Source: Rufibacter immobilis (GTDB lineage Bacteria; Bacteroidota; Bacteroidia; Cytophagales; Hymenobacteraceae). Taken from it: a DNA stretch of 64,000 bases. Of the stretch, positions 1 to 64,000 are shown in pieces (position 1 is the first letter of the stretch; each line of letters begins with the position of its first letter). Below the pieces are notes generated by a model, which ran no database searches, was not told the DNA's origin, and saw nothing but the letters and a program-made list of their open reading frames with translations. Location: NCBI RefSeq assembly GCF_003721565.1, contig NZ_RJJE01000017.1, positions 1,290,636 to 1,354,635 on the forward strand, read 5' to 3'. Both the position numbers and the translations under genes were made by a program.

Positions 1-12
1 TGAGCGCCGCGC

Positions 13-47
13 GTTTAGCGGCTCTTTTTCCGGAAACAAGCTAAAAC
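13..47 (-). repeat. palindromic element copy 1 (asymmetric)
   Basis: The conserved arm reads on the minus strand (GTTTAGCGGCTCTTTTT on the plus strand). The partner arm is degenerate and ends in CTAAAAC. It lies upstream of the first glycosyltransferase gene. Confidence 0.8.
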
Positions 48-94
48 TGGTTTCCGTTCGCTCACTTACACCCAATACCAGAAGCAGAACACCT

Positions 95-1414
95 TTGAAA
101 TCAACCGGCCCACATACTCCTCAACCTGCATTGCTCATCACGTATTACTGGCCCCCATCGGGCGGAGCTGGGGTGCAGCGCTGCCTTAAGTTTGTGAAGC
201 ACCTCCCAGAGTTTGGCATTGCCCCTACCGTAGTCACCGTTGATGACCGGCAGGCCTCTTACCCGGTCCTGGACCCTTCGCTCAACGCTGAGGTGCCCGC
301 CGGGGTAAACGTGATCCGGACGGGCACCCGCGAGCCTTTTGAGTTCTACAAGAAAATCACGGGCAAGAAAGACATCCCGTTCGGGGGGTTTGCCAATACC
401 GGCCAGGAAACCTGGAAGCAGAAGCTGTTCAAGTTCCTGCGGGGCAATCTGTTCATCCCAGACCCGCGCGTGGGCTGGAACCGGTACGCCTACGCCGCCG
501 CCAAGAAAGCGATTCAGGCGGGGGGCATCAAAGCGGTGGTCACTTCCAGTCCGCCCCATTCCACCCAACTCGTAGGCCTGAAGCTCAAAAAGCAGCTGGG
601 CATCAGGTGGATTGCCGACATGCGCGACCCCTGGACCGACATCTATTATTACCAGGACCTGAACCACACCGCACTGGCCCAGAAGCTGGACGCCAAATAC
701 GAGCGCGATGTGCTGGAACACGCCGATGCCGTGGTAGTGGTCTCTGAGGACATGAAACGCCTGTTCCTGAACAAATCCACCACGCTAGATCCGCACAAAA
801 TCCACGTGATTCCCAACGGTTATGACGAGGACGATTTCGTGCATCCGTCTGCGCCTTCTACTGAGGAGTTCATCATTACCTACACCGGTACCCTCACCGA
901 GGCCTATAACGTGGAAGGTTTCTTTCAGGCGCTCTGCGAAACCGTGACCCGCAACCCTTTGCTGCGGTACCGCCTGCGGTTTGTGGGAAAGGTGTCGCAG
1001 GAGATTAAGCGGCAGATTGAAGAAGCCGGCTTGCCTCTCATCACGGAGTATATTGACTACGTGCCCCACGAGGAATCCATCAAATACCTCATGGCCAGCA
1101 CCGTATTGCTGATGGCCATTCCGGACGTGCCCAACAACTTCGGGATTCTCACCGGCAAGCTGTTTGAGTACCTGGCCGCCAATAAACCCATCATCTGCAT
1201 TGGCCCCATCCACGGCGACGCCGATAAGATTCTGGATGAGTGCGGCGCGGGGCGGGTTTTCCATTACTCGGGCTATGCCCTTATTCTGGATTACCTCATG
1301 CAACTGAGCAAAACCTGGAAGATCAATACCAATCTGGACCTGCCCAGCATCAACTACACGCAGTATTCGCGCCGCTCCCTCACGGAACAGCTGGCAAAAC
1401 TGCTGGTAAAATAA
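95..1414 (+). CDS. glycosyltransferase, GT-B fold (GT4-like)
   Basis: Likely transfers a sugar from a nucleotide-sugar donor during surface or exopolysaccharide assembly at the cytoplasmic membrane face. The 439-aa protein has an N-terminal acceptor-side domain with YYWPPSGGAGVQR at residues 17-29, typical of GT4 enzymes. A C-terminal donor-binding domain carries GKLFEYLAANKPIICIG near residues 354-370. The only start giving a complete N-terminal domain is the TTG at 95; no ATG lies upstream in frame. A deacetylase and a flippase follow on the same strand, separated by gaps that hold palindromic repeats. Acceptor and donor cannot be read from the sequence. Confidence 0.85.
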   Translation: MKSTGPHTPQPALLITYYWPPSGGAGVQRCLKFVKHLPEFGIAPTVVTVDDRQASYPVLDPSLNAEVPAGVNVIRTGTREPFEFYKKITGKKDIPFGGFANTGQETWKQKLFKFLRGNLFIPDPRVGWNRYAYAAAKKAIQAGGIKAVVTSSPPHSTQLVGLKLKKQLGIRWIADMRDPWTDIYYYQDLNHTALAQKLDAKYERDVLEHADAVVVVSEDMKRLFLNKSTTLDPHKIHVIPNGYDEDDFVHPSAPSTEEFIITYTGTLTEAYNVEGFFQALCETVTRNPLLRYRLRFVGKVSQEIKRQIEEAGLPLITEYIDYVPHEESIKYLMASTVLLMAIPDVPNNFGILTGKLFEYLAANKPIICIGPIHGDADKILDECGAGRVFHYSGYALILDYLMQLSKTWKINTNLDLPSINYTQYSRRSLTEQLAKLLVK

Positions 1415-1418
1415 CGTT

Positions 1419-1458
1419 GCGTTTAGGGGCCGTTTTTCCAAAAACAGCCCCTAAACGC
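1419..1458. repeat. palindromic element copy 2 (near-perfect)
   Basis: Both 17-nt arms are present with one mismatch. It fills most of the gap between the glycosyltransferase and deacetylase genes. Confidence 0.85.
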
Positions 1459-1492
1459 ATACCATAACCGGAAAGAGCTTCGTTTTCTCCCC

Positions 1493-2812
1493 GTGAACAG
1501 CATTTTTGACTACGTCCTTTTCCATTTCCAGCGCCTCTACCATTTGCCCTCTCCCCTGGAGATCAGCTACGGGTTAGACGGCCGGAGCCGGGTTCAGGTC
1601 ACGCGCACCACCAGCACGTTTTTTGAGCGGCAGCAAGCCAAACCGGTGCAGACCGTCTGGAAAGAATGGCACGGCAGCAACCTCACCCTCTTCTTTGATG
1701 AAAGCCCAGACCAACCCTGGTTTACCCAAACGGAACAGGGGCACGTAGTGGTGCACTATGATCTGGTGGCCTCGGCGTTTTACCTGTTGAGCGGCTGGCA
1801 GGAATTTTACGGTCCGGAACGCGATTCATTTGGCCGCTATCCTTATAAAGCCTCGCAGCAGGCCCGCCACCGGTTCATCACCAAACCGCTGGTCAATTAT
1901 TACCTGGACATTCTGCGGGAAGCCGTTGCCCTCGCTTATGGGCAGGAGATTTTGCCCCGAAGCTGGAACGGAAAACCGTTTGCCACCTGCCTCACGCATG
2001 ATGTTGATTTTTGCCAGAGCGCCTGGAAAGTGGCCGGCAAACCAGCGCTTAAAAAAGGAAATTTGGGTGTATTCCTGAAGCTGGCCCAGCAAAAACTCAG
2101 GGGCCAGGATGCTTGGTTTAACCTCCCGCAGGTAGAACGCGAACTGAAGCAACTCCACGCCAAAGGCACTTTCTTTTTCCTGCCCGAGGCTGCTCCCTAT
2201 GAAGGCCACCCCAACGCCGACTATGACGTTTCCGCCCCTGAAATCCAGAACGAGATCAAACGGTTGGCCGCCGCCGGGCATGAGATTGGTTTGCACGGCA
2301 GCCACGGCACCGGCACCAACGCCCGGAAACTGCAAGCGGAGCGGGCCAAACTTCCCGCAAATGTAAAGGGAAACCGTTTCCATTATTTGCGCTTTGATCC
2401 CGTGAAAACCCCTGCCCTGCTGGCGGAGCTGAACTTACTGTATGACAGCACCCTGGGGTTCCCCGAGCATTATGGGTTCCGGAACAGCTATTGCCACCCT
2501 TTTAGGCTGTTCAACTTCAGGGAGCGGCAAATGTTGCCTGTCTGGGAAGTACCCCTGAACCTGATGGACGTGACCCTGCACCACCCCTATTACCTGCAAC
2601 TGCCCTCCGCTGAAGTCATGCCCGCCGTCACGCCCATGCTGGAGGAGATCATCCGGTTTGGCGGGGTGTTCACCTTGCTTTGGCACAATGAAAACTTCAG
2701 TGACTATGGCCTGGAAGAGGGAAAGTCGATTTTTCAGGAAATCACCCGCTTTCTCCAGAACCGCCAGACGTGTTTCCTGACCGCCGGTGAAGTGATCGGG
2801 CTGACGGAGTAG
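1493..2812 (+). CDS. polysaccharide deacetylase family protein
   Basis: Probable carbohydrate esterase 4-type N- or O-deacetylase acting on a polysaccharide or its precursor. The N-terminal half (about residues 1-150) looks like the DUF7033-type domain that often precedes this catalytic domain in Bacteroidota. The NodB-like part holds THDVD at 168-172 (metal and base aspartates) and HEIGLHGSH at 263-271 (metal histidines). No signal peptide is evident, so it may be cytoplasmic. Translation appears to start at a GTG. It lies between a glycosyltransferase and a flippase, which fits polysaccharide modification. The substrate is unknown. Confidence 0.82.
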   Translation: MNSIFDYVLFHFQRLYHLPSPLEISYGLDGRSRVQVTRTTSTFFERQQAKPVQTVWKEWHGSNLTLFFDESPDQPWFTQTEQGHVVVHYDLVASAFYLLSGWQEFYGPERDSFGRYPYKASQQARHRFITKPLVNYYLDILREAVALAYGQEILPRSWNGKPFATCLTHDVDFCQSAWKVAGKPALKKGNLGVFLKLAQQKLRGQDAWFNLPQVERELKQLHAKGTFFFLPEAAPYEGHPNADYDVSAPEIQNEIKRLAAAGHEIGLHGSHGTGTNARKLQAERAKLPANVKGNRFHYLRFDPVKTPALLAELNLLYDSTLGFPEHYGFRNSYCHPFRLFNFRERQMLPVWEVPLNLMDVTLHHPYYLQLPSAEVMPAVTPMLEEIIRFGGVFTLLWHNENFSDYGLEEGKSIFQEITRFLQNRQTCFLTAGEVIGLTE

Positions 2813-2891
2813 TTCCTGCGGTCATTCATTTTTGGGTGGCATAGCGAAAGCCACGGGAGAAGCTGCTATTTTTGTTTTTCGGGCCGAGGCT

Positions 2892-2941: not shown

Positions 2942-4432
2942 ATGGATGTCATCCGCAAGCAGAGTTACCTGAATACTGTCATTTCCACCGTGGGCATGGT
3001 GATCGGGTACCTGAACACCGTATTGGTGCTCCCCTATTTCCTCGCCGACCCGGACAAAGTGGGCCTGACGCGTTTTCTGCTGAGCGTGTCGCCGGTGTTT
3101 GCGCAGTTTGCGGCCTTGGGGTTCACCAACACCAGCGCTCGCTATTTTCCCTACTTCCGGGACCGCGACAAGCAGCACAATGGTTTTCTGTTCCTGATGC
3201 TGGCCATTCCCATGCTGGGCTTTGCGGTGGTCACGGTGCTGTTCCTCTTCCTGAAACCGGCCGTTTTTGATCTGTATCGGGTCACTTCGCCGCTGGCGGT
3301 GGACTATTATTACTACATCATTCCGCTCAGTTTCTTCACGCTTCTGTTCCTGCTGCTGGATGCGTACCTGCGGGCGCTCTACAAAACCATTGTGCAGACG
3401 TTCTTGCAGGATTTCCTGGTCAGGCTCCTGACCATGGCCTGCGCCGCACTCTTCTATTGGGGCTTTGTTGATTTCCAGTGGTTCGTGATTCTGTTTATTG
3501 CGGCCAATTCCTGCACCGCGTTTATCTGTATTATTTATCTGCTCTGGCTGAAGCAATTCTTTGTGCGCCCGGGGCGCAATATGTTCCAGATTGTACCCAT
3601 CAAGGAAGTGGTGCAGTATGGTTTGTACGCTTTTCTGGGCAACATCTCCGGCACCATCATCACCTTCACCGACACGGCCATGATCATGGCGTACCGTGGG
3701 CTGTCTGATGTAGCTTATTATACCACCGGGTATTTTATCACCAGCGCCATTCTGGTGCCCTACCGCTCCATGAACAAGATTCTGAGTCCGCAGGTAGCCG
3801 ATCTGTTCAAGCAGCAGGACATGCCGGCGCTGGGGAAACTGTACAAGAACATGACCCGCGTGAACCTGCTCATTGGCTTGCTGCTTTTTCTGGGCATCTG
3901 GTGCAACGTAGACAACATCTTCGCGCTCATGCCCGCAGAATACAGCGCCGGACGTTACGTGATCTTGTTCATGGGCATTGCCCGTATCTTTGAGCTGGCC
4001 ACCGGCCTGAACGCCATGATTCTGGTCACTTCGCACAAATACCGCTATGACCTCATCCTGAACATCCTCATGGTGGCGCTGGTCATCTTCACCAATTACC
4101 TGCTCATTCCGCCCTACGGCATCAGTGGCGCGGCCTTCGCCTCCATGCTGGTGTTCATCCTGATCAATGTGTTCAGGGTGGCGTTTGTGGCGTACTTCTT
4201 CAAGATGCAGCCCTTCGGGTGGGATTCTCTGCTGCTGCTGCTCATTGCCGGAGCCGCTTACTTGGCTTCCTACGCGCTGCCGCAATTACCTCACCTACTG
4301 TTGGATATTGCCGTACGGTCTGTGCTGATCACGGGAGTATACGGAGGTTTGGCGGTGGGCTTGAAAGCGTCACCGGAGCTGAACGAAGGAATCAGGAAGA
4401 CCTTGCTGAAGTTTGGGGTTGGTAAGCGGTAA
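2942..4432 (+). CDS. polysaccharide flippase (Wzx/MATE-like membrane protein)
   Basis: A 496-aa, highly hydrophobic protein with roughly 12-14 predicted membrane segments and no soluble domain, the length and profile of Wzx-type O-antigen flippases of the MOP superfamily. It would move lipid-linked oligosaccharide from the inner to the outer face of the cytoplasmic membrane. The N-terminus (NTVISTVGMVIGYLNTVLVL) and a mid segment with GISGAAFASMLVFIL are typical of the family. It closes the rightward polysaccharide group and converges on the leftward glycosyltransferase at 4482, 49 bp away. The ATG start comes shortly after repeat copy 3. Confidence 0.85.
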   Translation: MDVIRKQSYLNTVISTVGMVIGYLNTVLVLPYFLADPDKVGLTRFLLSVSPVFAQFAALGFTNTSARYFPYFRDRDKQHNGFLFLMLAIPMLGFAVVTVLFLFLKPAVFDLYRVTSPLAVDYYYYIIPLSFFTLLFLLLDAYLRALYKTIVQTFLQDFLVRLLTMACAALFYWGFVDFQWFVILFIAANSCTAFICIIYLLWLKQFFVRPGRNMFQIVPIKEVVQYGLYAFLGNISGTIITFTDTAMIMAYRGLSDVAYYTTGYFITSAILVPYRSMNKILSPQVADLFKQQDMPALGKLYKNMTRVNLLIGLLLFLGIWCNVDNIFALMPAEYSAGRYVILFMGIARIFELATGLNAMILVTSHKYRYDLILNILMVALVIFTNYLLIPPYGISGAAFASMLVFILINVFRVAFVAYFFKMQPFGWDSLLLLLIAGAAYLASYALPQLPHLLLDIAVRSVLITGVYGGLAVGLKASPELNEGIRKTLLKFGVGKR

Positions 4433-4481
4433 GAGCATCAAAGGTCTGGTTACGCACATTCTCTGAGACTAGCTGAAGCTT

Positions 4482-5552
4482 TTAACCTACTAATTTTTGT
4501 AATAAACCTATCAATCCCCGCTCTCGCCGCTGCTCTGGATAATGGGAGGCCATGATTTCCCGTGCTTTTTGCCCCAGCTTCTGCGTGTTTTCAACTTCCA
4601 TAGCTTCCCTTACAAGTCTCTCCAGTAAATGAATGTTGCGCTGGGATAATACAAATCCGGTGTCGGCAATTAGATCGGGCATGGCTCCTACCTGGCTCAC
4701 GATGGGGACGCACCCGCACAGCATGCTTTCACTGAGGGCGTTGGGGAATCCTTCTGACATGGAAAGTTGCAAGTAAAAGGTATGGGCGCTATATACTGCT
4801 TTCAGATCCTCTAAAGGCATCTTGGGCAACAGTCGCACGTTGGCGGGTTGGTTGGGGAACTTGAAACCTTCTGGCGCCCCTACAATGGTGAAAGTAGCCT
4901 CCGGAACTCTGCCCGCTACCTCCAGAATCAGATCTACTCCTTTCAGGCGCTGGGTGAAACGCATGTTCAGGCCGGCGCAAACCGTCAGGAAAGAGTTGGG
5001 CTGGCGCTCTATAGTGAAATCTTGTTTCCAGAACTCAGCGTTGTACCCGTTGTAAATAACAGTATGGGGGGTGACAAGAGTTGGGCAATGGTACCGAAAT
5101 CCCTGGTGCGGAAAGTCATTAGTCTGATAGGTATAGTCTTGCCACACCAGTTTCTCGTGCACCGGCGCAATGTGGGCGGCCAACTGGTAAGACCAGCGAG
5201 CGAAACGTCCTAAGACCGGGTTGGCGAACACGCCGTACCCAATGCTGGGAAAGGAAACGCAGTCGGTGCCACCGGCCACAATGAGACAGGGTTTAGCGGC
5301 TATTTTTCCGAAAAGAGCCGGAAACCAGGAATGGTACCCGGCAAACATGCACACCAGCGCCTGAGCTTGCCAAATATGCCGCAGCAGGAAAAAGAGCTGC
5401 CCTAGCCAGACCAATGGCGTCTGCCACTTCTTTACGGGCAGAAAACCCTGGTGCCGCACCTCATACTCCTTCTGCATCAATGCCAGGTCCTTTACCACAA
5501 ACGAAGACTGAGCCGGGTAAAAGTAAAGCAGAATGGGTTTACGGGCAGACAT
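4482..5552 (-). CDS. glycosyltransferase (GT4-like) with an in-frame palindromic element
   Basis: A GT-B glycosyltransferase of 356 aa, last gene of the leftward sugar operon. The donor-side motif EGFPNALSESMLCGCVP (about residues 265-281) is the E-x7-E signature of GT4 enzymes, followed by VGAMPDLI. An early segment FAGYHSWFPALFG leads into CLIVAGGTDCVSFP. Residues about 76-87 (FPALFGKIAAKP) are encoded by a 35-bp copy of the palindromic element spread between genes in this window (5291-5325). The insertion keeps the frame open. The gene lies 21 bp downstream of the methyltransferase gene. The sugar transferred is unknown. Confidence 0.85.
   Translation of the reverse strand: MSARKPILLYFYPAQSSFVVKDLALMQKEYEVRHQGFLPVKKWQTPLVWLGQLFFLLRHIWQAQALVCMFAGYHSWFPALFGKIAAKPCLIVAGGTDCVSFPSIGYGVFANPVLGRFARWSYQLAAHIAPVHEKLVWQDYTYQTNDFPHQGFRYHCPTLVTPHTVIYNGYNAEFWKQDFTIERQPNSFLTVCAGLNMRFTQRLKGVDLILEVAGRVPEATFTIVGAPEGFKFPNQPANVRLLPKMPLEDLKAVYSAHTFYLQLSMSEGFPNALSESMLCGCVPIVSQVGAMPDLIADTGFVLSQRNIHLLERLVREAMEVENTQKLGQKAREIMASHYPEQRRERGLIGLLQKLVG
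5291..5325 (-). repeat. palindromic element copy 4, inside a glycosyltransferase gene
   Basis: On the coding (minus) strand it reads from GTTTCCGGCTCTTTTC to the conserved end AATAGCCGCTAAAC. It is translated as part of FPALFGKIAAKP. Confidence 0.75.
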
Positions 5553-5573
5553 AACCAGGAAAGCAGATAAATA

Positions 5574-6260
5574 CTACAACCACTTAGAAGCCAAGTCCTG
5601 CAATTTTAGGCTCACTTTTGATTTTGATGCGACCGTCTCCGGCACCCGGCGCTGTTTCAGGAGAATCCACTGGTAATCTTCTACCTGCGTGAACAGAGAA
5701 TAGCTTTCCAATTTGTGCAGGTACAAACCAGCGGCGTAGGTGTTGCGCAACAACTCATCAGAATGGATAGGCTGGTCAATCACCTGCAATAACTCCGGTT
5801 GGTGCTCCCGTACCCATGTGAGGTACAGCGGATGCGGAATATTGATGGCCACCGTGGAGTTTTCGTGCAGGTGCTGCGCGATGACCTGGAACAGGTTGGG
5901 GTGCTGCTCCAGCGGGATGTGCTCAATCACGTCTGGCAGCACCACGAAATCAAACTTCTCGGGGCGGCTGAAATCGATCATGTCAGACACCTGGAACTCC
6001 ACGTGGTTAAACTGCTGGTTGAACCGGCGGGCCATGTCAATGCTCTTGGGGCTGATGTCTACGGCCAGAACTTTCCCGTTAGGCGTGGCCTTGGCCAGCA
6101 GGTGCGTCACGGTGCCAATGCCGCAGCCAATCTCCAAAACCTTCGCTTCTGCGGTGAGACCTGCTTTCTTCAGGTTCTTCAGAATAGTCCGGTGCCGGAT
6201 GTGGATGCCTTTTTTGAACTGCTGCTCGGTATAGTCGTCGTAAAAATCAGATACACTCAT
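5574..6260 (-). CDS. class I SAM-dependent methyltransferase
   Basis: A 228-aa Rossmann-fold methyltransferase. Motif I VLEIGCGIGT (residues 41-50) binds S-adenosylmethionine. The acidic residue after strand 2 is in VDISPKSIDMA, and motif IV reads FDFVVLPDVIEHIP (about 104-117). Its place between sugar dehydrogenase/aminotransferase genes and a glycosyltransferase suggests it methylates a sugar or glycan end, but the acceptor is not visible. The ATG start is preceded by an AT-rich repeat tract (6261-6300), so it may have its own transcript or be read through from 6365. Confidence 0.85.
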   Translation of the reverse strand: MSVSDFYDDYTEQQFKKGIHIRHRTILKNLKKAGLTAEAKVLEIGCGIGTVTHLLAKATPNGKVLAVDISPKSIDMARRFNQQFNHVEFQVSDMIDFSRPEKFDFVVLPDVIEHIPLEQHPNLFQVIAQHLHENSTVAINIPHPLYLTWVREHQPELLQVIDQPIHSDELLRNTYAAGLYLHKLESYSLFTQVEDYQWILLKQRRVPETVASKSKVSLKLQDLASKWL

Positions 6261-6378
6261 TTTTTTAATTAAGAATTGGCAATTGAAAATTAAGAAGGAA
6301 TGGAAGGAATTAAGAACTGAATCAATGCCCAGTAAAAACTGGTTTAATCCTTACTTCCTGCTTCTCAATTCTTAACTC
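6261..6378. repeat. AATTAAGAATT-type repeat tract
   Basis: The gap between the methyltransferase and dehydrogenase genes holds AATTAAGAATTGGCAATT-like units. A partly inverse unit (TCTCAATTCTTAACTCCC) at its right end runs into the last codons of the dehydrogenase. Confidence 0.6.
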
Positions 6379-7387
6379 CCTTCAGCTCATAAATACGTTC
6401 AATAATCTCCACCACTTTGAGGCCCTCCAGGGCGTTGGTTGTAGCGAAGGTTTTGCCTTTGAGGGTGTCTATCACGTTCTCAAAAATGAAGTGGTGGTTG
6501 GCGGCGCTGCCTTTGTAGTGGCCGTAGTCGTTGGCCGGGCTGCTGGGCGGCAGTTGTGGCATCACATAATCCTGCACGTGGCAATACTCCACCTCGTTCA
6601 TGTACTGCCCGCCTACTTTAATGCTGCCTTTCTCGCCTATGATGGTCATGCTGCTCTCCAGGTTGCTGTCCCAGACGGCGGTGGAATAGTTGAGCGTACC
6701 CGCTCCGCCGTTCATGAACTCAAACTGGATGAGGCCGCTGTCCTCAAAATCGGTGAGCTGCTGGTGGTTGAAATCCATGAACCGGCCGCTGATGTTCTTG
6801 ATATCCCCGAAGAGCCAGTACATGATGTCTATAAAGTGGCTGAACTGCGTGAACAGCGTACCGCCGTCCAGGGTCTGGTCTCCTTTCCAGGTGCCGGCCT
6901 TGTAGTAGCGGGCGTCGCGGTTCCAGTAACAGTTGATCTGCACCAGGAAAATTTCGCCCAGTCGCTTCTCCGTGATCATTTCCTTCAGCCAGAGTGACGG
7001 CGGACTGTAGCGGTTCTGCATGACGCAGAACACCAGCTTAGACGTTTGCAGGGATTTGTAGATGATGCGCTCACAGTCTGCCTTGCTCAGGGCCATGGGC
7101 TTCTCGCAGACCACGTGGCTGCCGTTCTCCAGGGCCAGCATGGCCTGCTGGGCGTGAAAACCGTTGGGCGTACAGATGCAGATCACATCGGCTTTGGGGC
7201 CGTGGGCTAAGTACTCCTCCATAGACTGAAAGAACGGCACCCCAAAAGCCTCTACTTCCGGCTGGCGCGCCACATCTGTGTCAACCATGGCCACCAACTC
7301 CCCCTCCCCGTGCCGTTGCACCATGGTAGCGTGGCGTTTTCCAATATGGCCTGCGCCTATCACGGCAAATGTTATTTTCTCTGACAT
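6365..7387 (-). CDS. Gfo/Idh/MocA oxidoreductase (WlbA/WbpB-like)
   Basis: NAD(P)-dependent sugar dehydrogenase, 340 aa. The Rossmann motif VIGAGHIGKRH is at residues 9-19 and the family signature EKP at 95-97. The segment GGTLFTQFSHFIDIMYWLFG resembles WlbA/WbpB enzymes, which oxidise the 3-position of UDP-N-acetylglucosaminuronic acid before amination. The adjacent upstream gene encodes an aminotransferase like the one that acts next in that pathway. The matching acetyltransferase and the UDP-GlcNAc 6-dehydrogenase are not in this window. The substrate assignment is inference; the family call is firm. Confidence 0.85.
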   Translation of the reverse strand: MSEKITFAVIGAGHIGKRHATMVQRHGEGELVAMVDTDVARQPEVEAFGVPFFQSMEEYLAHGPKADVICICTPNGFHAQQAMLALENGSHVVCEKPMALSKADCERIIYKSLQTSKLVFCVMQNRYSPPSLWLKEMITEKRLGEIFLVQINCYWNRDARYYKAGTWKGDQTLDGGTLFTQFSHFIDIMYWLFGDIKNISGRFMDFNHQQLTDFEDSGLIQFEFMNGGAGTLNYSTAVWDSNLESSMTIIGEKGSIKVGGQYMNEVEYCHVQDYVMPQLPPSSPANDYGHYKGSAANHHFIFENVIDTLKGKTFATTNALEGLKVVEIIERIYELKGVKN

Positions 7388-7403
7388 GAATGTCTTCTTT
7401 CGC

Positions 7404-7439
7404 GTTTTGGGCCTGTTTTTGGAAAAAGAGCCCCTAAAC
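7404..7439 (+). repeat. palindromic element copy 5 (asymmetric)
   Basis: Arms GTTTTGGGCCTGTTTTT and GAAAAAGAGCCCCTAAAC, with no symmetry outside the core. It lies between the dehydrogenase and aminotransferase genes. Confidence 0.85.
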
Positions 7440-7447
7440 AGGATAAT

Positions 7448-9775: not shown

Positions 9776-9784
9776 ATGGCTTCT

Positions 9785-9820
9785 GTTTTAGGCCTCTTTT
9801 CAGATAAAGAGCCCCTAAAC
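9785..9820 (+). repeat. palindromic element copy 6 (asymmetric)
   Basis: Starts 10 bp after the terminator. Its left arm GTTTTAGGCCTCTTTTC matches the copies at 39225 and 50433; the right arm is GATAAAGAGCCCCTAAAC. Confidence 0.85.
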
Positions 9821-9827
9821 CCATGGA

Positions 9828-11709: not shown

Positions 11710-11715
11710 CGTTTT

Positions 11716-11800
11716 TTAATTAGGAATTAGGAATTAAGAATTAGGAATGCCTGAAAACACCTTCCAATTCTTAATTCCTAATTCTAAATTCTCAATTAAA
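11716..11800. repeat. inverted pair of AATTAGGAATT repeat tracts
   Basis: A left tract AATTAGGAATTAGGAATT and a right tract AATTCTTAATTCCTAATT form a long imperfect hairpin between the 67-aa ORF and the transaldolase gene. Confidence 0.65.
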
Positions 11801-12485: not shown

Positions 12486-12557
12486 CTTTAATCCACTTGG
12501 AAAACCGAACCCGCAGGGGAAGTATTTTAACAAGAAACAGAGAGGGAAAGGCAGGGG

Positions 12558-12595
12558 CGTTTAGGGGCTGTTTTTCTGAAAAGAGGCGCTAAACG
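12558..12595. repeat. palindromic element copy 7 (near-perfect)
   Basis: CGTTTAGGGGCTGTTTTT is paired with AAAGAGGCGCTAAACG, with a few mismatches in the stem. Confidence 0.8.
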
Positions 12596-12873
12596 GGATT
12601 TTCTTGGGTTAATGCCTGGGCTGTGGCGTTTGTCTAGGGCTTTATGGGCGGTGCTGTTTCATCTTTGGCGGTAAGCGCTCACGGCCGCGGGGCCCCGTCT
12701 TCCCCTCTCGCACTGCCCTTGCGGCCAAGTGAATGCAGTTTTCTCTTAGTTTCTTTCCTGCTTGGCCACAAGCGAGGCGCTCTAGGGAAAGACTGGAGAT
12801 GGTGCGGGTAGTAAAGGCCGTTGCGGGATGAGGCAAATATTCTGCTGGAGATAACGGAAGCTCAGCAGGAGTA
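12596..12873. other. non-coding stretch without a recognised gene
   Basis: No convincing gene on either strand. It is GC-rich (for example ACGGCCGCGGGGCCCCG near 12680), with short inverse arms GGCCAAG and CTTGGCC about 40 bp apart (12733-12775). It could be a decayed gene or an unrecognised repeat. Confidence 0.3.
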
Positions 12874-13049: not shown

Positions 13050-13054
13050 CTTCC

Positions 13055-13089
13055 GTTTAGCGGCTGTTTTTCTCAAATCAAGGCAAAAC
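13055..13089 (-). repeat. palindromic element copy 8 (asymmetric)
   Basis: GTTTAGCGGCTGTTTTTC is intact; the other arm is degenerate, ending AAGGCAAAAC. Confidence 0.75.
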
Positions 13090-13156
13090 CGGGCTCTTGA
13101 CTTAGAACTCAACACTTATAACTAACAAAGACCTCTTAGCGTCTTCGCCGATTTCC

Positions 13157-13191
13157 GTTTAGCGGCTGTTTTTCTCAAATTAACTTGAAAC
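13157..13191 (-). repeat. palindromic element copy 9 (asymmetric)
   Basis: The first 24 nt match copy 8 (GTTTAGCGGCTGTTTTTC then TCAAAT); the rest has decayed to TTGAAAC. Confidence 0.7.
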
Positions 13192-13232
13192 CAGAGTGCC
13201 CGGCTAATCCTGAGACAGCTGGGGATTGGGAA

Positions 13233-13290
13233 ACGGCATTTGTGTTTAGGGGCTGTTTTTGGAAAAACAGCCCCTAAACACAAATGCCGT
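13233..13290. repeat. palindromic element copy 10 (perfect, extended)
   Basis: The 36-bp core is a perfect palindrome, and the symmetry runs 11 bp further on each side (ACGGCATTTGT and ACAAATGCCGT), giving an essentially perfect 58-bp inverted repeat. Confidence 0.9.
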
Positions 13291-13350: not shown

Positions 13351-13357
13351 AAAAAAG
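13351..13357 (-). terminator. T-run ending the SRP RNA gene
   Basis: Directly after the closing GCCG stem of the SRP RNA, the minus strand carries a run of T residues. Confidence 0.65.
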
Positions 13358-13450
13358 CGGCAAACCGAGTATCGCGCCGCTCAACCACTTACCCTTGCTC
13401 CCTTCCGGGCCTGGGGGAGTTCAGTAGGAGCTGGCCGTACCGATTTGCCG
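13358..13450 (-). ncRNA. ffs: signal recognition particle RNA, small bacterial type
   Basis: A hairpin RNA of about 93 nt that binds Ffh (SRP54) and guides signal-bearing ribosomes to the membrane. On the minus strand the core reads CAGGCCCGGAAGGGAGCA, the universal SRP domain IV with its GGAA tetraloop and asymmetric loop, followed by AGGGTAAGTGGTTGAG. The ends pair (CGGCAAA with TTTGCCG). A T-run follows and a TAnnTTTG promoter lies 3 bp upstream. It has no Alu domain, as is usual for the small bacterial form. It sits in a gene-free, repeat-rich island. Confidence 0.93.
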
Positions 13451-13453
13451 TTG

Positions 13454-13461
13454 CAAAGATA
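13454..13461 (-). promoter_or_regulatory. Bacteroidota -7 element for the SRP RNA
   Basis: TATCTTTG on the minus strand, placed so that transcription starts at the first base of the RNA (about 13449). Confidence 0.75.
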
Positions 13462-46666: not shown

Positions 46667-46682
46667 AGAAGGTAAGTTTAGC

Positions 46683-46903: not shown

Positions 46904-46924
46904 CGGTTTGAGAAGAATTGACCA

Positions 46925-48850: not shown

Positions 48851-48855
48851 TTTGA

Positions 48856-48893
48856 GCAAAACCTCACGGCCTTACACGTCTGTGAGGTTTTGC
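48856..48893 (+). terminator. terminator-like hairpin after the ABC-F gene
   Basis: GCAAAACCTCAC pairs with GTGAGGTTTTGC. Its right arm runs into palindromic copy 29. Confidence 0.75.
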
Positions 48894-48934
48894 GTTTAGG
48901 GGCTGTTTTTCCAAAAACAGCCCCTAAACGCAAA
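48889..48934. repeat. palindromic element copy 29 (perfect, extended)
   Basis: A perfect core with flanking symmetry TTTGC/GCAAA. The left flank is shared with the terminator hairpin. Confidence 0.9.
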
Positions 48935-49055
48935 GGAAGCTTACCTGAATCACTTGCAGGACACGATAACCTCACCACAAGGCGTTCTGTGACCAGAGAC
49001 GGTCTAAGTCTACAAAAGCACAATCAATAATAAACGCGCTACCCAAACGCATTAC

Positions 49056-50384: not shown

Positions 50385-50427
50385 AAAGAGAAGGCTCCTT
50401 AACCGGTTAAGGAGCCTTCTCTTTTTA
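50384..50427. terminator. bidirectional terminator between the plug gene and the dehydrogenase gene
   Basis: A perfect 22-bp inverted repeat (AAAAAGAGAAGGCTCCTTAA and its inverse) with T-runs on both strands. Confidence 0.92.
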
Positions 50428-50432
50428 TTTCT

Positions 50433-50468
50433 GTTTTAGGCCTTTTTTCAGAAAAAGAGCCCCTAAAC
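50433..50468 (+). repeat. palindromic element copy 30 (asymmetric)
   Basis: GTTTTAGGCCTTTTTTC then AGAAAAAGAGCCCCTAAAC. It nearly equals copies 6 and 23, and like them it directly follows a terminator. Confidence 0.85.
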
Positions 50469-50469
50469 G

Positions 50470-51432
50470 CTATTTGGCTTTGGTTTGAAGATACGCTTTC
50501 AATTTGGCTACCAACACTTCATTAATCCGGAGGTAAGATTCCTGCGTCCAGCCGGCAATGTGCGGGGTAAATATTACCTGGGGGTGTTCTTCCAGATAAG
50601 CTAAACGGGACTGCTGTTCCGGGGTGAGGGTTTTCAGTTTTTCGTTTTCCAACACATCCAGCGCGGCTCCTTTTACCTTGCCGGCTTGCATGGCGGCCAC
50701 CAGCGCGGCATGGTCAAGAACTTCGCCGCGGGCAGTATTCAGTAGCCAAAACGGCTGTTGGAACCCCATCAGGACCTGCTCGTTGATGAAATGGTGGTTC
50801 TCTTTATTGTAAGGGAAATGAAGACTCAGCACTTGCGCCCGCGCCTGAATTTCTTCCAGGGTGGTAAGCCGCACATGCGGATAAGGGTTTTCCACCTCCT
50901 GTTGGTCAAAGGCCAGCACCTCACAGTCAAAACCCATCAGCCGTTTAGCGAAGGATTTCCCCATGTGCCCGTAGCCGATGAGGCCGATGGTTTTCCCCCC
51001 AATCTCCTCGCCCCGGTTTTCTTCCCGCAGCCACTGGCCCTGCCTAATCTGGCGGTCGCCTTGCGTAATTTTCCGGAACAGCGCCAGCAGCAGACCTAAC
51101 GTGTGGTCACCCACGGCGTCTCGGTTCCCTTCCGGGGCGTTGAGCAGGGTAATCTTCCTGGCCTCCAGCACGCCATCATCAATGTTGTCTACTCCGGCTC
51201 CGGCGCGGGCCACTACTTCCAGTTTAGGGGCGTGTTCCAGCAAAGCTGCGGTCACCCGCATCTTGCTGCGCACCACCAGCATGTGGTACTCTGGCAACAA
51301 AGCGGGCACTTCTTCTTTTTTGATTTCCGGTACGTACGTGACCTCCACGCCAAGCCCTTGCAGCATAGGCAGCAGGCTTTCATGCATGAGGTCAATGACC
51401 AGGCAACGGAACGGTGATTCTGATGAAGACAT
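50470..51432 (-). CDS. D-isomer-specific 2-hydroxyacid dehydrogenase (phosphoglycerate dehydrogenase-like)
   Basis: NAD-dependent dehydrogenase of 320 aa. The Rossmann motif is IGLIGYGHMGKSFAKRLM (near residue 148). The catalytic arginine lies in LNTARGEVLDHAAL, the glutamate follows in the next helix (DVLENEKL), and the histidine is in FTPHIAGWT. Its length without an ACT domain fits SerA-like, glyoxylate or related reductases, so the exact substrate is open. It is third in a leftward group, 4 bp after mgtE. Confidence 0.82.
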   Translation of the reverse strand: MSSSESPFRCLVIDLMHESLLPMLQGLGVEVTYVPEIKKEEVPALLPEYHMLVVRSKMRVTAALLEHAPKLEVVARAGAGVDNIDDGVLEARKITLLNAPEGNRDAVGDHTLGLLLALFRKITQGDRQIRQGQWLREENRGEEIGGKTIGLIGYGHMGKSFAKRLMGFDCEVLAFDQQEVENPYPHVRLTTLEEIQARAQVLSLHFPYNKENHHFINEQVLMGFQQPFWLLNTARGEVLDHAALVAAMQAGKVKGAALDVLENEKLKTLTPEQQSRLAYLEEHPQVIFTPHIAGWTQESYLRINEVLVAKLKAYLQTKAK

Positions 51433-51436
51433 GGTA

Positions 51437-52789
51437 TTAGAGATTTAACAGGACATGCGCCACCAGAAAATAGACGGCCAGCCCTAACAGGTCATTGGCG
51501 GTGGTAATGAACGGCCCGGCGGCCACGGCGGGGTTAATTCCGTATTTATCCAGAATCATGGGCGTTACCGTACCCATGAACGAGGCTAACAGCACCACAC
51601 TGAACAAAGCCACGGCCACTACCACAGACAAAGTAAACTGCACCCCAAACAGGATATTAAAACCCAGCACCAGACCAGACATGACCAATCCGTTAATAAT
51701 GGCCACCAATAGTACTTTCACAATCCGGGAGGTGAAGTTGTCAAACAAGACGGTTTTGTTGGCCAGCGTCTGAATAATGATGGACGAGGACTGGATGCCT
51801 ACGTTGCCACCGGTGGCGGTGATAAGCGGCGTGAACATAGCCAGCGCCGGGATCACAGAAATATCGCCTTCAAAAAGCCCGATGAAACGGGCGCCCAACA
51901 GACCGCCTACCATGCCCACCATCAGCCAGGGCAGCCGCGCGCGCGAAAGCCGGAACACGCTGTCATCTTCCTCAATGTTCTCGGTGATACCCGTCATGAG
52001 CTGCCTGCTCAGTTCGGCTTGCTCCTGAATCACATCAATCACGTCGTCAATGGTGATGCGGCCCAGCAATCGGCCCTGGATGTTGACCACCGGAATAGCG
52101 TCCAAATCATACTTCTGCATGACCGTGGCCACCTCCTGCTCATCTTTGTAAGACTCAATGGAAATCACATCGGGGTCGTAGACTTTGGAGATGGGAGTCT
52201 CATCGCCGCAAAGAATGAGGGTTTTCATGCTCAGGCGCCCCACCAGTTTGTCGCGTTCGTCCACCACGTAAATGGCGTAGACTTTCTCCACGTCCTCGGC
52301 CTGGCGTCTTATTTCATCAATACATTGCCCTACGCGCCAGTTAATGTTCACTTTGATCAACTCCTTTGCCATGAGACCTCCGGCGCAGTCTTCGTCATAG
52401 TGCAAGAGGTCAATAATATCGGCTACATGCTCCTGGTCTTCCAGCAGGGCTATGATTTCCTCTTTGCGCTGCACCGGCTGCTCATTGAGCAAATCCACGG
52501 CATCATCAGAGTCCATTTCGCCAATGTAGCGGGCAATCTCCTCGGTGGTGAAATTCTTGAGGAAATTGGTGCGCACGTCAGAGTCCAGGTCGCTCAGGAT
52601 TTCAGCGCCCACATCGGGCGGCAGCACGTCCATCACGTATTTGCTTTGCTCCGTGTTGAGCTCGTACAAAACGGTGGTGATGTCTACCGCATACATTTCC
52701 TCCATGTTGGAGAGAATGAACTCAGCGTCGCGGCGCTCAATGGCGTCTTCTATCTGGGCAATGAACTCGCGGGTAATTTCAGACTGCAT
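51437..52789 (-). CDS. mgtE: magnesium transporter MgtE
   Basis: A 450-aa Mg2+ channel/transporter. The N-terminal domain (about 1-130, with DVGAEILSDLDSDVRTNFLK) senses Mg2+, two CBS domains follow (about 130-250, KVYDPDVISIESYKDEQEVA), then five membrane helices. The pore region includes TATGGNVGIQSSSII, with conserved TGGN and Asp in the last helix (NDLLGLAVYFLVA). Its start overlaps the end of rsmA by 11 bp, so they are co-transcribed. No Mg2+ riboswitch is visible upstream; the leader is coding. Confidence 0.92.
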   Translation of the reverse strand: MQSEITREFIAQIEDAIERRDAEFILSNMEEMYAVDITTVLYELNTEQSKYVMDVLPPDVGAEILSDLDSDVRTNFLKNFTTEEIARYIGEMDSDDAVDLLNEQPVQRKEEIIALLEDQEHVADIIDLLHYDEDCAGGLMAKELIKVNINWRVGQCIDEIRRQAEDVEKVYAIYVVDERDKLVGRLSMKTLILCGDETPISKVYDPDVISIESYKDEQEVATVMQKYDLDAIPVVNIQGRLLGRITIDDVIDVIQEQAELSRQLMTGITENIEEDDSVFRLSRARLPWLMVGMVGGLLGARFIGLFEGDISVIPALAMFTPLITATGGNVGIQSSSIIIQTLANKTVLFDNFTSRIVKVLLVAIINGLVMSGLVLGFNILFGVQFTLSVVVAVALFSVVLLASFMGTVTPMILDKYGINPAVAAGPFITTANDLLGLAVYFLVAHVLLNL

Positions 52790-53561
52790 GCTGCTGGATC
52801 AGGAGGGTCAGGTGAATGAAATCTTCTACGGAAAGTTGCTCCGCCCTTTTATCGAAAACCGGTTGCTGCGTCACCTCGGCCGGCAGGCCGAAGGGCTTGA
52901 GGCAGTTCCGAAGGGTTTTACGGCGCGTCCCGAAACTGGTCTTCACTACGCTGAAAAACAGTTTCTCGTCGCAGGGCAGCTGGGTCACCTCATTGCGCGT
53001 TAACCGCACCACCGCGCTTTTCACCTTGGGCGGCGGGTTAAACACGTGCTCGTGCACCGTGAACAGGTACTCTATAGAATAAAACGCCTGCAAAAGCACA
53101 CTCATGATGCCGTATGTCTTGGAACCGTGCGGGGCGGCAATACGCTCAGCCACTTCTTTCTGGATCATGCCCACCACTTCCGGCACCTGATCACGGTGCT
53201 CCAGCACTTTGAAGAAGATCTGGCTGGAGATGTTGTAGGGAAAATTGCCTATGATGGCGAACGGTCCGGTAAAGAGCGTTTTCAGATCGGTTTTCAGAAA
53301 ATCGGCAAAAAGCACACGCCCCTCCAGCTGCGGAAAATGCTCGTTGAGCCAGGCAATGGATTCGCGGTCAATGTCTACCACGGTAGTTTTATAGGCAGGG
53401 TTCTGCGCCAGGTATTGCGTGAGCACCCCCATGCCGGGCCCTACCTCCAACACCTCCCGCACCCCCTTGGGAAGCTGCAGGGCCTCCACAATCTTCTGGG
53501 CAATGTTGAGGTCTGTGAGGAAGTGCTGACCTAGGTGTTTCTTGGGTTGGACGGGCTTCAC
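52779..53561 (-). CDS. rsmA: 16S rRNA dimethyladenosine transferase RsmA (KsgA)
   Basis: Dimethylates two adjacent adenines near the 3' end of 16S rRNA during small-subunit maturation. The 260-aa protein has PKKHLGQHFLTDLNIAQKIV at its N-terminus, VLEVGPGMGVLTQYLAQ (SAM-binding) and the catalytic IGNFPYNISSQIFF (NxPY type). The longest frame starts at 53612, but that start lies before the -7 element at 53600-53607. The GTG at 53561 gives a transcribed and family-like N-terminus. It heads the leftward rsmA-mgtE-dehydrogenase operon and diverges from pepA. Confidence 0.92.
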   Translation of the reverse strand: MKPVQPKKHLGQHFLTDLNIAQKIVEALQLPKGVREVLEVGPGMGVLTQYLAQNPAYKTTVVDIDRESIAWLNEHFPQLEGRVLFADFLKTDLKTLFTGPFAIIGNFPYNISSQIFFKVLEHRDQVPEVVGMIQKEVAERIAAPHGSKTYGIMSVLLQAFYSIEYLFTVHEHVFNPPPKVKSAVVRLTRNEVTQLPCDEKLFFSVVKTSFGTRRKTLRNCLKPFGLPAEVTQQPVFDKRAEQLSVEDFIHLTLLIQQHAV

Positions 53562-53599
53562 TGGTTTTCGGTTTCCGTTTGTTAAGGCTATATTGCAGC

Positions 53600-53607
53600 C
53601 AAAGATA
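53600..53607 (-). promoter_or_regulatory. Bacteroidota -7 element for rsmA
   Basis: TATCTTTG on the minus strand, 9 bp from the pepA start on the other strand. A near-consensus TATATTG at 53589 faces pepA, so the two promoters overlap. Confidence 0.6.
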
Positions 53608-53615
53608 CACATCTT

Positions 53616-56067: not shown

Positions 56068-56115
56068 TTTTTACGTAGGGGCTGTTTTTAGAAAAACAGC
56101 CCCTAAACGTAAAAA
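56068..56115. repeat. palindromic element copy 31 (extended, left arm short)
   Basis: TTTTTACGTAGGGGCTG is paired with CAGCCCCTAAACGTAAAAA. The left arm has lost two or three bases (GTAGG for GTTTAGG), yet the outer flanks TTTTTACG/CGTAAAAA still pair. Confidence 0.85.
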
Positions 56116-56169
56116 ACAACAGATGAAATGTCTTTAGCACAGCTATCTTCCTCAGAATGAACTAGTGCT

Positions 56170-56205
56170 GTTTTAAGGCTGTTTTGAGAAAAGGAGCCGC
56201 TAAAC
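56170..56205 (+). repeat. palindromic element copy 32 (asymmetric)
   Basis: GTTTTAAGGCTGTTTTG then AGAAAAGGAGCCGCTAAAC, 55 bp after copy 31. Confidence 0.8.
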
Positions 56206-56264
56206 GGCTAATGACTAACCCTCGCAAAAAAGGCAATTGTATTTTATAATTCAGATATTTCTGC

Positions 56265-60408: not shown

Positions 60409-60476
60409 CTAGCGATGCTCCCCGCTTTTGGTTTTCTTTTCTAAAAAATAAGCCAGAAAACAGGGAGCATCACTAG
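60409..60476. repeat. palindromic element copy 33 (diverged core, paired flanks)
   Basis: The core (GCTTTTGGTTTTCTTTT with TAAGCCAGAAAAC) is diverged. The flanks CTAGCGATGCTCCC and GGGAGCATCACTAG still pair with one mismatch. Confidence 0.65.
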
Positions 60477-62980: not shown

Positions 62981-63032
62981 AAACTCCCGTTTAGGACCTG
63001 TTTTTGGAAAAACAGGTCCTAAACGGGAGTTT
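62981..63032. repeat. palindromic element copy 34 (perfect, extended, paired changes)
   Basis: GTTTAGGACCTGTTTTT is paired with AAAAACAGGTCCTAAAC. Both arms carry the same complementary changes from the common form, and 8 bp of flank (AAACTCCC/GGGAGTTT) extend the symmetry. Confidence 0.9.
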
Positions 63033-63627: not shown

Positions 63628-63651
63628 GAGCTAATTCTTTTAGCAGAAAGA

Positions 63652-63659
63652 CAAAAGTA
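63652..63659 (-). promoter_or_regulatory. Bacteroidota -7 element for the DUF3109 gene
   Basis: TACTTTTG on the minus strand, 25 bp before the ATG. Confidence 0.6.
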
Positions 63660-63716
63660 CCGCTATTTAAGTTCGGCCGCAAAGCCTTAGCGCAAAGTGT
63701 GCAAGACGGCAAATGC

Positions 63717-63752
63717 GTTTAGCGGCTCTTTTTCTGAAAAAAGGCCCAAAAC
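63717..63752 (-). repeat. palindromic element copy 35 (asymmetric)
   Basis: GTTTAGCGGCTCTTTTTCTG then AAAAAAGGCCCAAAAC, the inverse of the form seen at 39225. The rest of the interval 63760-63910 shows no recognised feature. Confidence 0.8.
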
Positions 63753-63912
63753 GGCTGCTTCTTCCCTACCCCATCTATCACCCACCGTAAACGCGAGGCG
63801 AATGGCCCAGAACAAGAGCTTGGGTGCCTCCTCCTTTGGGCAGCGGAAGGATGGTCCAAGAAATGGAGCAGTGAATACCAAAGCTTCTGAGCAGAATGCG
63901 ACCTTTCTTTCG

Positions 63913-63920
63913 TAATTTTG
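63913..63920 (+). promoter_or_regulatory. Bacteroidota -7 element for the helicase gene
   Basis: TAATTTTG, 33 bp before the ATG at 63954. Confidence 0.6.
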
Positions 63921-63953
63921 TGTTCCTTCTACAAGAAAGAACCTTTCGTACAC

Positions 63954-64000
63954 ATGGATTACTTAAAACTCCTGAATGAGTCACAGCGCGCTGCTGTTTT
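63954..64000 (+). CDS. UvrD/PcrA-type DNA helicase, 5' end only
   Basis: The last 47 bases encode MDYLKLLNESQRAAV, the Q-motif start typical of UvrD/PcrA superfamily 1 helicases. The gene runs off the window, so Walker A is not visible. The call depends on this short N-terminus and the well-placed promoter. Confidence 0.65.
   Translation, partial: MDYLKLLNESQRAAV

Follow-up and report, generated by a model that had tools for sequence, protein, structure and literature searches.

A Rufibacter-wide family of REP-like 40-bp palindromes as probable modules of gene 3' ends

Species of the genus Rufibacter share a family of REP-like 40-bp palindromes which, on balance, we regard as bidirectional terminator or 3'-end modules that have been homogenised in some lineages. 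A covariance-model (CM) scan of relatives, as suggested in a preliminary description of this DNA, detected the family in 14/14 Rufibacter genomes, and in 3/46 other genomes of the same taxonomic family, each of the three with one palindrome's worth of matches. Searching Rfam with the window (i.e., the whole 64-kb stretch analysed here) at the gathering threshold returned SRP RNA only, and no match fell on an element in bases 1–32000 at an E value ≤0.5. Among the literature matches listed there was no earlier description of the Rufibacter family, in agreement with the first impression of a dense, REP-like family.

The element is a palindrome of 36–40 bp with the consensus CCGTTTTnGGGCTGTTTTCnnnAAAACAGnCCnAAAACGn. 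It is present in the window as 33 CM matches (E value ≤0.02), the doubtful ones being 60422–60463 and three in open reading frames (5289, 35841, and 53276), and as 34 distinct elements by hand listing, which bears out the dense family of about 35 copies originally reported. The arm GAAAAAGAGCCGCTAAAC (3 mismatches or fewer) has 40 matches in the window compared with 0.13 expected from shuffles, while the arm GAAAAACAGCCCCTAAAC has 43 compared with 0.04. A chance frequency elsewhere in the genome had been named as grounds for abandoning the family, and the counts are far from it. An 864-kb sample of the R. immobilis genome contains 348 sites compared with 4 for a reversed-pattern control, the 11-mer AGCSSCTAAAC occurs 807 + 813 times genome-wide compared with 4 + 7 for the reversed pattern, and a 3-mer shuffle serving as the control for a looser pattern gave 1 raw match. 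Rufibacter genomes carry one 40-bp palindrome per 2–3 kb; the extrapolated copy number is ~1,600–2,000 per genome in the four most-sampled genomes, and ~1,900 in R. immobilis, where the 348 copies of 40 bp make up ~8% of the non-coding DNA of the sample. Copies are spaced more evenly than expected by chance: per 20 kb, the mean count is 7.78 and the variance 4.95 (p 0.038, or 0.0009 with the empty locus L029 removed post hoc). This locus, which has defence-type genes, contains zero elements. Copies fall into two classes: palindromes that are near-perfect, and imperfect palindromes of which one arm is of the ancestral type. These classes, together with the 3'-end skew, the stems reaching into unique flanks and the genus-wide dialects described below, went unremarked in the preliminary description.

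Many copies in the window were found both by hand and by the CM. They include the near-perfect palindrome at 1419–1458, 6 bp 3' of a stop codon, and the imperfect elements at 2890–2929, 7402–7441, and 9783–9822 (all plus strand, the last in a convergent gap) and at 13053–13092, 13155–13194 (E value 0.016), and 63715–63754 (all minus strand). Also in this group are 11–50 (minus strand; one dialect arm; E value 0.0095), 12557–12596 (minus strand), 19294–19333, 20742–20781 (5 bp 3' of a stop codon), 24656–24695 (lacking an arm of the R. immobilis dialect), and 26614–26653. Two elements share a convergent gap at 39223–39262 (plus strand), directly 3' of a terminator-like hairpin, and at 39363–39402 (minus strand; E value 0.008), and another gap holds 56073–56110, located 9 bp 3' of a stop codon, and 56168–56207 (both plus strand). 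The CM further supplied 26873–26912, the near-perfect 30276–30315, the weak 31532–31571 (minus strand; E value 2.8e-4), and three perfect palindromes: 13233–13290 (28-bp arms; element core 13242–13281, outer stem unique), 29202–29255 (26-bp arms; core 29209–29248), and 62981–63032 (25-bp arms; core 62987–63026; in a convergent gap). At the place of 29202–29255, several relatives have a degenerate element-like sequence, as judged by eye. The CM also returned element-like sequences within open reading frames at 5289–5328 and 35841–35879 (both minus strand), as well as weak, doubtful matches at 53276–53315 (minus strand; within an open reading frame; E value 0.0043) and at 60422–60463, within a different, longer palindrome (E value 0.012).

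The preliminary description placed the copies on both strands and in every kind of gap. Both strands are indeed used, and convergent, tandem and, rarely, divergent gaps are occupied, but the distribution is strongly biased towards convergent gaps and gene 3' ends. Gaps of the R. immobilis sample contain 4.5 elements per kb when convergent, 1.9–2.2 when tandem, and 0.74 when divergent. An element is present in 70/87 convergent gaps of at least 60 bp in this sample and in 53/57 in five relatives; among gaps of 60–120 bp in the R. immobilis sample, 28/35 convergent and 18/69 tandem ones are occupied. The near-absence from tight operon junctions is confirmed, with an element in 3/96 tandem gaps below 60 bp in the 864-kb sample. 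In tandem gaps, near-perfect copies lie at a median of 28.5 bp past the stop codon and 126.5 bp ahead of the next start. Divergent gaps contain an element in 26/93 cases in R. immobilis and in 7/12 in G228. These assignments rest on a hexamer-based gene caller trained on the R. immobilis genome, so gap types are rougher in relatives. After removal of six sites less than 70 bp from a locus end, 342 of the 348 remained, of which 26 were outside gaps between called genes.

Located at gene 3' ends, the element forms a stable hairpin, and its stem can continue into the flanks. Pairing reaches at least 3 bp past the 40-bp frame in 54/103 of the best-paired R. immobilis copies compared with 2/118 poorly paired ones. 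In a subset of copies the element is the top of a longer, gene-specific stem followed by a T-tail on the coding strand. Such tails (at least 5 T in the 8 nucleotides after the stem, with a mirrored A-tail as control) were counted for tandem copies that are well paired and lie no more than 100 bp from a stop codon. Most copies have none, and those present follow the coding strand, 34 compared with 8 mirrored among 169. The bias is significant in the relatives (20 compared with 2 of 77; Wilcoxon p=0.0007), that of R. immobilis alone being non-significant (14 compared with 6 of 92; p=0.257). With a stem extension of at least 5, the counts are 14 compared with 1 of 33 in relatives and 10 compared with 2 of 51 in R. 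immobilis; in divergent gaps they are 0 compared with 1 of 22 and 1 compared with 2 of 13, respectively. The earlier view that the T-run lies inside the stem, and that the element is therefore not an ordinary terminator, holds for the inner T-run, which is not a tail, but not for the subset with a coding-strand T-tail. A folding-based terminator scan, applied to 200/313 R. immobilis elements, found a hairpin plus tail in 41/96 well-paired copies in sense and 21/52 in antisense orientation, and so does not discriminate in this genome; sense and antisense counts were 17/43 and 2/15 in G302, 15/28 and 3/12 in G228, and 8/30 and 3/17 in G297. A strict test for flush terminators was positive for 10–16% of 3' sides, about the same as for random intergenic points (9%). 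A perfect terminator-like palindrome with 29-bp arms that does not belong to the family (50376–50433) abuts the element at 50431–50470.

Pairing between the arms was assessed by covariation. In a set of 67 copies the score was 0.242, compared with 0.133 for shuffled and at most 0.089 for slid alignments, and two stem positions show all four Watson-Crick pair types. Pairs changed on both sides numbered 12 in the same set, a value reached in 96/500 shuffles, and at one site common to 15 species pairing covariation was no better than in shuffles (55/500 reach it). On the sense strand G-U pairs were in no excess over A-C mismatches among all tandem copies (308 and 286), the counts being 98 and 69 among well-paired copies. 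A model in which the two arms vary independently fits only roughly and was set aside: copies with both, one, or no dialect arm number 166/57/26 compared with 152/85/12 expected, and at other thresholds 176/105/40 compared with 163/132/27 and 176/142/50 compared with 166/162/40.

A single stretch of the window, comprising 13 gaps, was compared between Rufibacter species (CM hits with an E value ≤0.02), and the elements there largely occupy the same places. Six gaps occupied in R. immobilis are occupied in 14/14, 10/12, 11/15, 7/10, 13/15, and 9/11 relatives. They include those of 37316–37355 (one arm of the R. immobilis dialect; 14/14), 44345–44384 (minus strand; 11/15), 48892–48931 (near-perfect, 3' of a small TTTT hairpin; 13/15), and 50431–50470 (plus strand; convergent gap; 9/11), all CM matches, and of 46681–46720 (plus strand; divergent gap; 7/10), which was also hand-listed. 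In five of the six, 2–4 relatives are without a match. For the seventh, the 56-bp convergent gap 46035–46090, the near-perfect palindrome at 46040–46079 is shared with 1/14 relatives, and a divergent gap that is empty in R. immobilis has a copy in 6/13 relatives. The weak R. immobilis copy at 43436 (E value 0.2) was scored as absent from the gap 43317–43750 because of the cut-off.

The spelling of the elements is species-specific in 5/16 lineages. Similarity within the species compared with that at the same place across species is 0.838 and 0.663 in G302, 0.766 and 0.698 in G299, 0.732 and 0.649 in R. immobilis, 0.710 and 0.666 in G228, and 0.710 and 0.667 in G296. In the other 11/16, copies from one species resemble each other no more than copies at one place do across species; therefore, no single spelling is required. 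Fourteen CM hits of the place comparison were excluded from this test, namely those of the window at 11, 5289, 35841, 53276, and 60422 and nine weak or late ones (L133, L134, L138, L139, L140, and L146). A 95% identical block is common to R. immobilis and G299.

Could the family be a selfish, non-autonomous element that inserts beside or into terminators and is tolerated there, its dialects reflecting recent bursts of copying? The five homogenised lineages would agree with this, as would the variable occupancy among relatives (the 1/14 and 6/13 gaps and the missing matches in five shared gaps) and the avoidance of genes, divergent gaps being avoided less strictly. We nevertheless consider it unlikely, given that most of the places compared in the 13 gaps are common across the genus and that copies are more evenly spaced than chance; the empty L029 speaks against rapid colonising. 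Moreover, the in-gene copies checked against relatives (6 of the 16 listed) were non-insertions in 6/6 cases. The sequences at 5289 and 35841 are so classified because the relatives' coding sequence has the same or nearly the same length there (equal in 14 aligned relatives at 5289; at 35841 equal in 10/13 and two residues longer in 3/13). Clustered rewriting of the coding sequence at L005:4865–4901 was considered and dismissed, since private changes are equally numerous in another stretch of that gene and were not outlying at the other five copies. No insertion footprint was found in the flanks compared, which are too diverged for one to be definable. That the family is of the REP/BIME type and moved by a host RAYT (Y1 transposase) is very improbable, even though 15/16 Rufibacter genomes have 1–6 Y1_Tnp matches, size and location are REP-like, and one RAYT-bearing locus (L204) has seven elements in 3.2 kb. 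The window was correctly described as devoid of RAYT and reverse transcriptase genes: PF01797 gave none there and one elsewhere in the R. immobilis genome, and PF00078 none in that genome. A RAYT flanked by the same arm, for which a search had been advised, did not emerge, as the sole RAYT of the genome is flanked by GGATT..AATCC palindromes of a different family, the nearest Rufibacter elements being a degenerate one ~270 bp upstream and one 260 bp downstream. At 30 RAYT-bearing loci the Rufibacter element occurs at 0.51/kb, near its background of 0.36–0.43/kb; GGATT..AATCC occurs there at 0.29/kb (in 6/30 loci) compared with 0.004/kb in the R. immobilis sample. G240 has no Y1_Tnp match and yet abundant elements, and a RAYT is not supported as the mover. 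With RAYT-associated REPs and BIMEs the family shares a 20–40 bp extragenic palindrome dispersed at gene ends in hundreds to thousands of copies, but it is unassociated with RAYT genes, keeps its places largely across the genus, and has GTTT..AAAC ends, its consensus showing by eye no GTAG/CGTC-type tag (tags as given in a passage of PMC3733652).

A site in double-stranded DNA, bound at unit ends by a putative dimeric protein (a roadblock, or of nucleoid or gyrase type) whose shifts in specificity would drive the dialects, strikes us as quite doubtful. Dyad symmetry with no clear preference for an RNA strand, one place whose letters are conserved but not significantly compensated, and even spacing fit such a site, but four Watson-Crick pair types at two stem positions would be odd for it, and the T-tails follow the coding strand. 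Very little credence is due to a DNA uptake sequence with species dialects as in the Neisseriaceae, its paired copies doubling as terminators. Copy number, dialects, pairs at gene ends and even spacing do resemble the DUS of Neisseria and the USS of Pasteurellaceae, for which tail-to-tail enrichment and coding-strand tails are likewise described in parts of PMC3630211 and PMC1852404. However, 353/365 strict arms are paired, the remaining 12 having a degenerate partner by eye, and 6/365 lie in coding sequence, while a passage in PMC3630211 calls intragenic DUS common; for a looser 10-mer, 20 of 415 are single and 15 are in coding sequence. Rufibacter arms are thus hardly ever single and rare in coding sequence, and an uptake sequence is not supported. 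Rho-independent terminators are similar in the 3'-end hairpin and, for a subset, the T-tail, but differ in that the Rufibacter elements share sequence, the stem top being common and the base gene-specific. RepRanger likewise reports high palindrome counts in some Bacteroidota, a passage naming Flavobacterium and Thermoflavifilum, with 'Rufibacter' and 'Hymenobacter' absent from the main text (PMC12306157).

Returning to the reading as bidirectional 3'-end modules, we propose that the element extrudes or folds into a hairpin. In a subset it would be the top of an intrinsic terminator, and since the lower stem and the T-tail are gene-specific, polymerase release would follow closure of the lower stem. 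Other copies, directly behind a separate hairpin or alone within ~30 bp of the stop codon, might halt or trim transcripts. Being palindromic, one copy could serve both strands, which would fit the occupancy of most convergent gaps. Against this reading stand the lack of a T-tail in most copies and of a significant tail bias in R. immobilis alone, the folding scan that does not discriminate there, the missing G-U excess, the double changes and single-site pairing that shuffles can equal, the occupied divergent gaps, and the absence of one required spelling. Copies tend to keep their places between species, and in some lineages a putative copying process would rewrite their letters to a common dialect. 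As a bolder and tentative extension, the genus may possess a 3'-end code in which ~2,000 palindromes that stay at transcription-unit ends are jointly rewritten to a new species dialect, a chromosome-wide concerted evolution of 40-bp sites whose copier or recognition factor would lie outside the RAYT and reverse-transcriptase families searched.

Rufibacter has a family of REP scale that is tied to transcription-unit ends throughout the genus without the usual link to RAYT. Many copies have the stem top in common, and each gene has its own base. The elements mostly keep their places, yet within some species their spelling shifts in step. The family makes it testable what keeps dispersed short repeats of bacteria alike, and also whether repeats of the REP type live as parasites or belong to gene 3' ends as built-in modules.

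Analysis with a covariance model (CM; E ≤ 0.02) revealed 33 distinct copies of the palindrome, an element of 36-40 bp treated here in a 40-bp frame with two 17-bp arms, in the window, of which the copy at 60422-60463 and three inside ORFs (5289, 35841, and 53276) are doubtful. The recurrent arms claimed in the preliminary description were borne out, with 40 and 43 matches in the window as against 0.13 and 0.04 expected. An 864-kb sample of the R. immobilis genome (the window and 40 stretches of 20 kb) contains 348 merged sites versus 4 with the reversed pattern, which extrapolates to about 1,900 copies in the genome of 4.77 Mb, and the exact 11-mer AGCSSCTAAAC occurs 1,620 times in the whole genome versus 11 times reversed. 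No description of the Rufibacter palindrome family was found among the best matches listed from the open-access literature.

Of the 291 genomes in the order, five contain a match to the 17-mer in the R. immobilis spelling (1,320 occurrences in its own genome, 3 in one congener, and 1 in each of three genomes). A covariance model built from 67 copies from 11 species (R1) has 80-110 matches per genome in all 14 Rufibacter genomes, where 110 candidates were scored per genome and a palindrome counts on both strands; among the other genomes of the family, 43 of 46 have no match and three have 2. With loose-frame detection, the density is 0.36-0.43 per kb in R. immobilis and the relatives G302, G297, and G228, whose commonest arms are GTTTAGGGGCTG, GTTTTCGGGCTC, GTTTTTGGCCTG, and GTTTTGGGCCTG, respectively, and 0.20-0.56 per kb in the remaining, smaller samples; the shuffled control gave one raw hit. 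These differing spellings are referred to here as dialects. Copies across one genome are more alike than same-place copies between species in 5 of 16 species, namely G302 (0.838 versus 0.663), G299 (0.766 versus 0.698), R. immobilis (0.732 versus 0.649), G228 (0.710 versus 0.666), and G296 (0.710 versus 0.667), and not in the other 11; homogenisation is therefore a property of some lineages. This comparison used one 20-kb stretch per relative and left out 14 CM hits (window positions 11, 5289, 35841, 53276, and 60422, and nine weak or late hits in loci L133, L134, L138, L139, L140, and L146). The strict arms are paired in 353 of 365 cases, the other 12 having, by eye, a degenerate partner. Among 342 copies, 167 are near-perfect (at least 14 pairs in the 17-bp arms), 49 intermediate, and 126 imperfect, the last combining one arm of the R. 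immobilis dialect (GTTTAG[GC]GGC..) with one resembling those of relatives (GTTTTnGGcCTg..).

The density of the element differs with gene orientation. The R. immobilis sample has 99 copies in 98 convergent gaps (4.5 per kb), 190 in tandem gaps (1.9-2.2 per kb), 27 in divergent gaps (0.74 per kb), and 26 outside any called gap. Gaps of 60-120 bp carry an element in 28 of 35 convergent and 18 of 69 tandem cases, and those under 60 bp in 3 of 9 and 3 of 96, respectively. Among gaps of at least 60 bp, a copy is present in 70/87 convergent and 26/93 divergent gaps in R. immobilis, 20/20 and 10/23 in G302, 13/17 and 4/17 in G297, 12/12 and 7/12 in G228, 5/5 and 3/5 in G299, and 3/3 and 1/2 in G300. 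Near-perfect copies in tandem gaps lie at a median distance of 28.5 bp from the stop codon, and the spacing of elements is more even than a Poisson distribution would give (variance 4.95 against a mean of 7.78, p=0.038). Thirteen orthologous gaps from a single stretch (window 36632-53615) were examined for shared places in up to 15 relatives. Where R. immobilis has a copy (seven gaps), relatives are occupied in 14/14, 10/12, 11/15, 7/10, 13/15, 9/11, and 1/14 cases, the last being gap 46035-46090; for the gaps empty in R. immobilis (E ≤ 0.02), the counts are 0/14, 1/15, 3/15, 1/11, and 0/7 in five gaps, and 6/13 in a divergent gap of 330 bp.

The preliminary description had proposed a search for RAYT genes (Y1 transposases; Y1_Tnp, PF01797), usually tied to REPs, flanked by the same arm. 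This association did not materialise: over 30 RAYT-bearing loci the element is near background (0.51 per kb), although one of them, L204, has seven copies, and G240 has no Y1_Tnp match yet many elements. A search with PF00078 found no reverse transcriptase in the whole R. immobilis genome, as had been reported for the window. The element most likely does not belong with the RAYT-linked REPs and most likely differs from an uptake sequence. Comparison with relatives of six of the 16 copies lying inside genes shows that none of the six is an insertion. The one Y1 transposase found in R. immobilis lies among GGATT..AATCC palindromes, which surround 6 of the 30 loci (this one and five more) and none of the other 24; these clusters, at L001 1233-1360, L190, L197, L198, L212, and L215, may represent the genuine RAYT-linked REPs of Rufibacter.

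Other features were observed in the same material. A distinct dispersed repeat, about 100 bp long and bounded by the inverted ends GTCATCCTGAAAG..CTTTCAGGATGAC, occupies L036 5308-5412; a search whose query includes this repeat gave 21-32 matches per Rufibacter genome over the entire query, most of those listed falling on the repeat. Positions 3953-6553 of the same locus share 95% identity with G299 over 2.6 kb versus 81% in the 20-kb comparison, a recent exchange between species. Locus L029 (1-20000) is low in GC, carries genes of the defence type (Schlafen helicase, TIR, and MazG-like), and has no element copy; it is perhaps an acquired defence island. AT-rich AATTAGGAATTA repeats form an inverted repeat at window 11713-11797 (8 matches in the 864-kb sample versus 0 reversed), and a small SRP RNA gene (Rfam RF04183) lies at 13354-13457 on the minus strand. 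A perfect palindrome with 30-bp arms at window 27917-27978, outside the element family, has Rfam microRNA matches below the gathering score, which are probably long-hairpin matches only. Another perfect palindrome, terminator-like and with 29-bp arms, lies at 50376-50433; several orthologs are also long and nearly perfect with a different sequence, as if such long terminators were kept perfect by some correction.

In the best-paired R. immobilis copies, the palindrome continues into non-conserved sequence, the stem extending past the 40-bp frame by at least 3 bp in 54 of 103 of them versus 2 of 118 poorly paired copies. By eye, several extended stems consist of an A-tract, a unique GC stem, the element, the mirrored stem, and a T-tract (for example, L030:5009, L022:3952, L034:11279, and L027:16571). 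A tail test after Kingsford and colleagues (PMC1852404) compared T-tails (at least 5 T in the 8 nucleotides after the stem) with mirrored A-tails. For well-paired copies within 100 bp of a stop in tandem gaps, the counts are 20 versus 2 in relatives (n=77; Wilcoxon p=0.0007) and 14 versus 6 in R. immobilis (n=92), not significant in this set alone (Wilcoxon p=0.257); with stem extension of at least 5 they are 14 versus 1 (n=33) and 10 versus 2 (n=51), respectively. The tails are near parity in convergent gaps (10 versus 6, n=58, in R. immobilis; 9 versus 7, n=62, in relatives) and both scarce in divergent gaps (1 versus 2, n=13, and 0 versus 1, n=22). Under a strict test, a separate hairpin directly precedes the element on 10-16% of 3' sides versus 9% at random points, and, for copies 35-60 bp from the stop, in 27-60% versus 24%.

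Several results are at odds with a terminator that acts purely as RNA. On the sense strand, G-U mismatches are not above A-C mismatches over all tandem copies (308 versus 286), the counts in well-paired copies being 98 versus 69. In a folding scan of well-paired R. immobilis copies, the element falls in a tailed hairpin at similar rates on the sense (41/96) and antisense (21/52) strands; sense is ahead in G302 (17/43 versus 2/15) and G228 (15/28 versus 3/12). At a site common to 15 species, pairing is no better than in shuffled columns. Over 67 dispersed copies, covariation is strong in its score and in the cells with changes on both sides but not in the number of pairs with such changes, which 96 of 500 shuffles reach, and dialects alone could produce covariation among dispersed copies. 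A role of the element as double-stranded DNA or as a DNA hairpin is therefore possible. The family is real, genus-specific, dialect-bearing, and tied to gene ends, and we consider the element most likely to be a REP-like terminator and 3'-end module.
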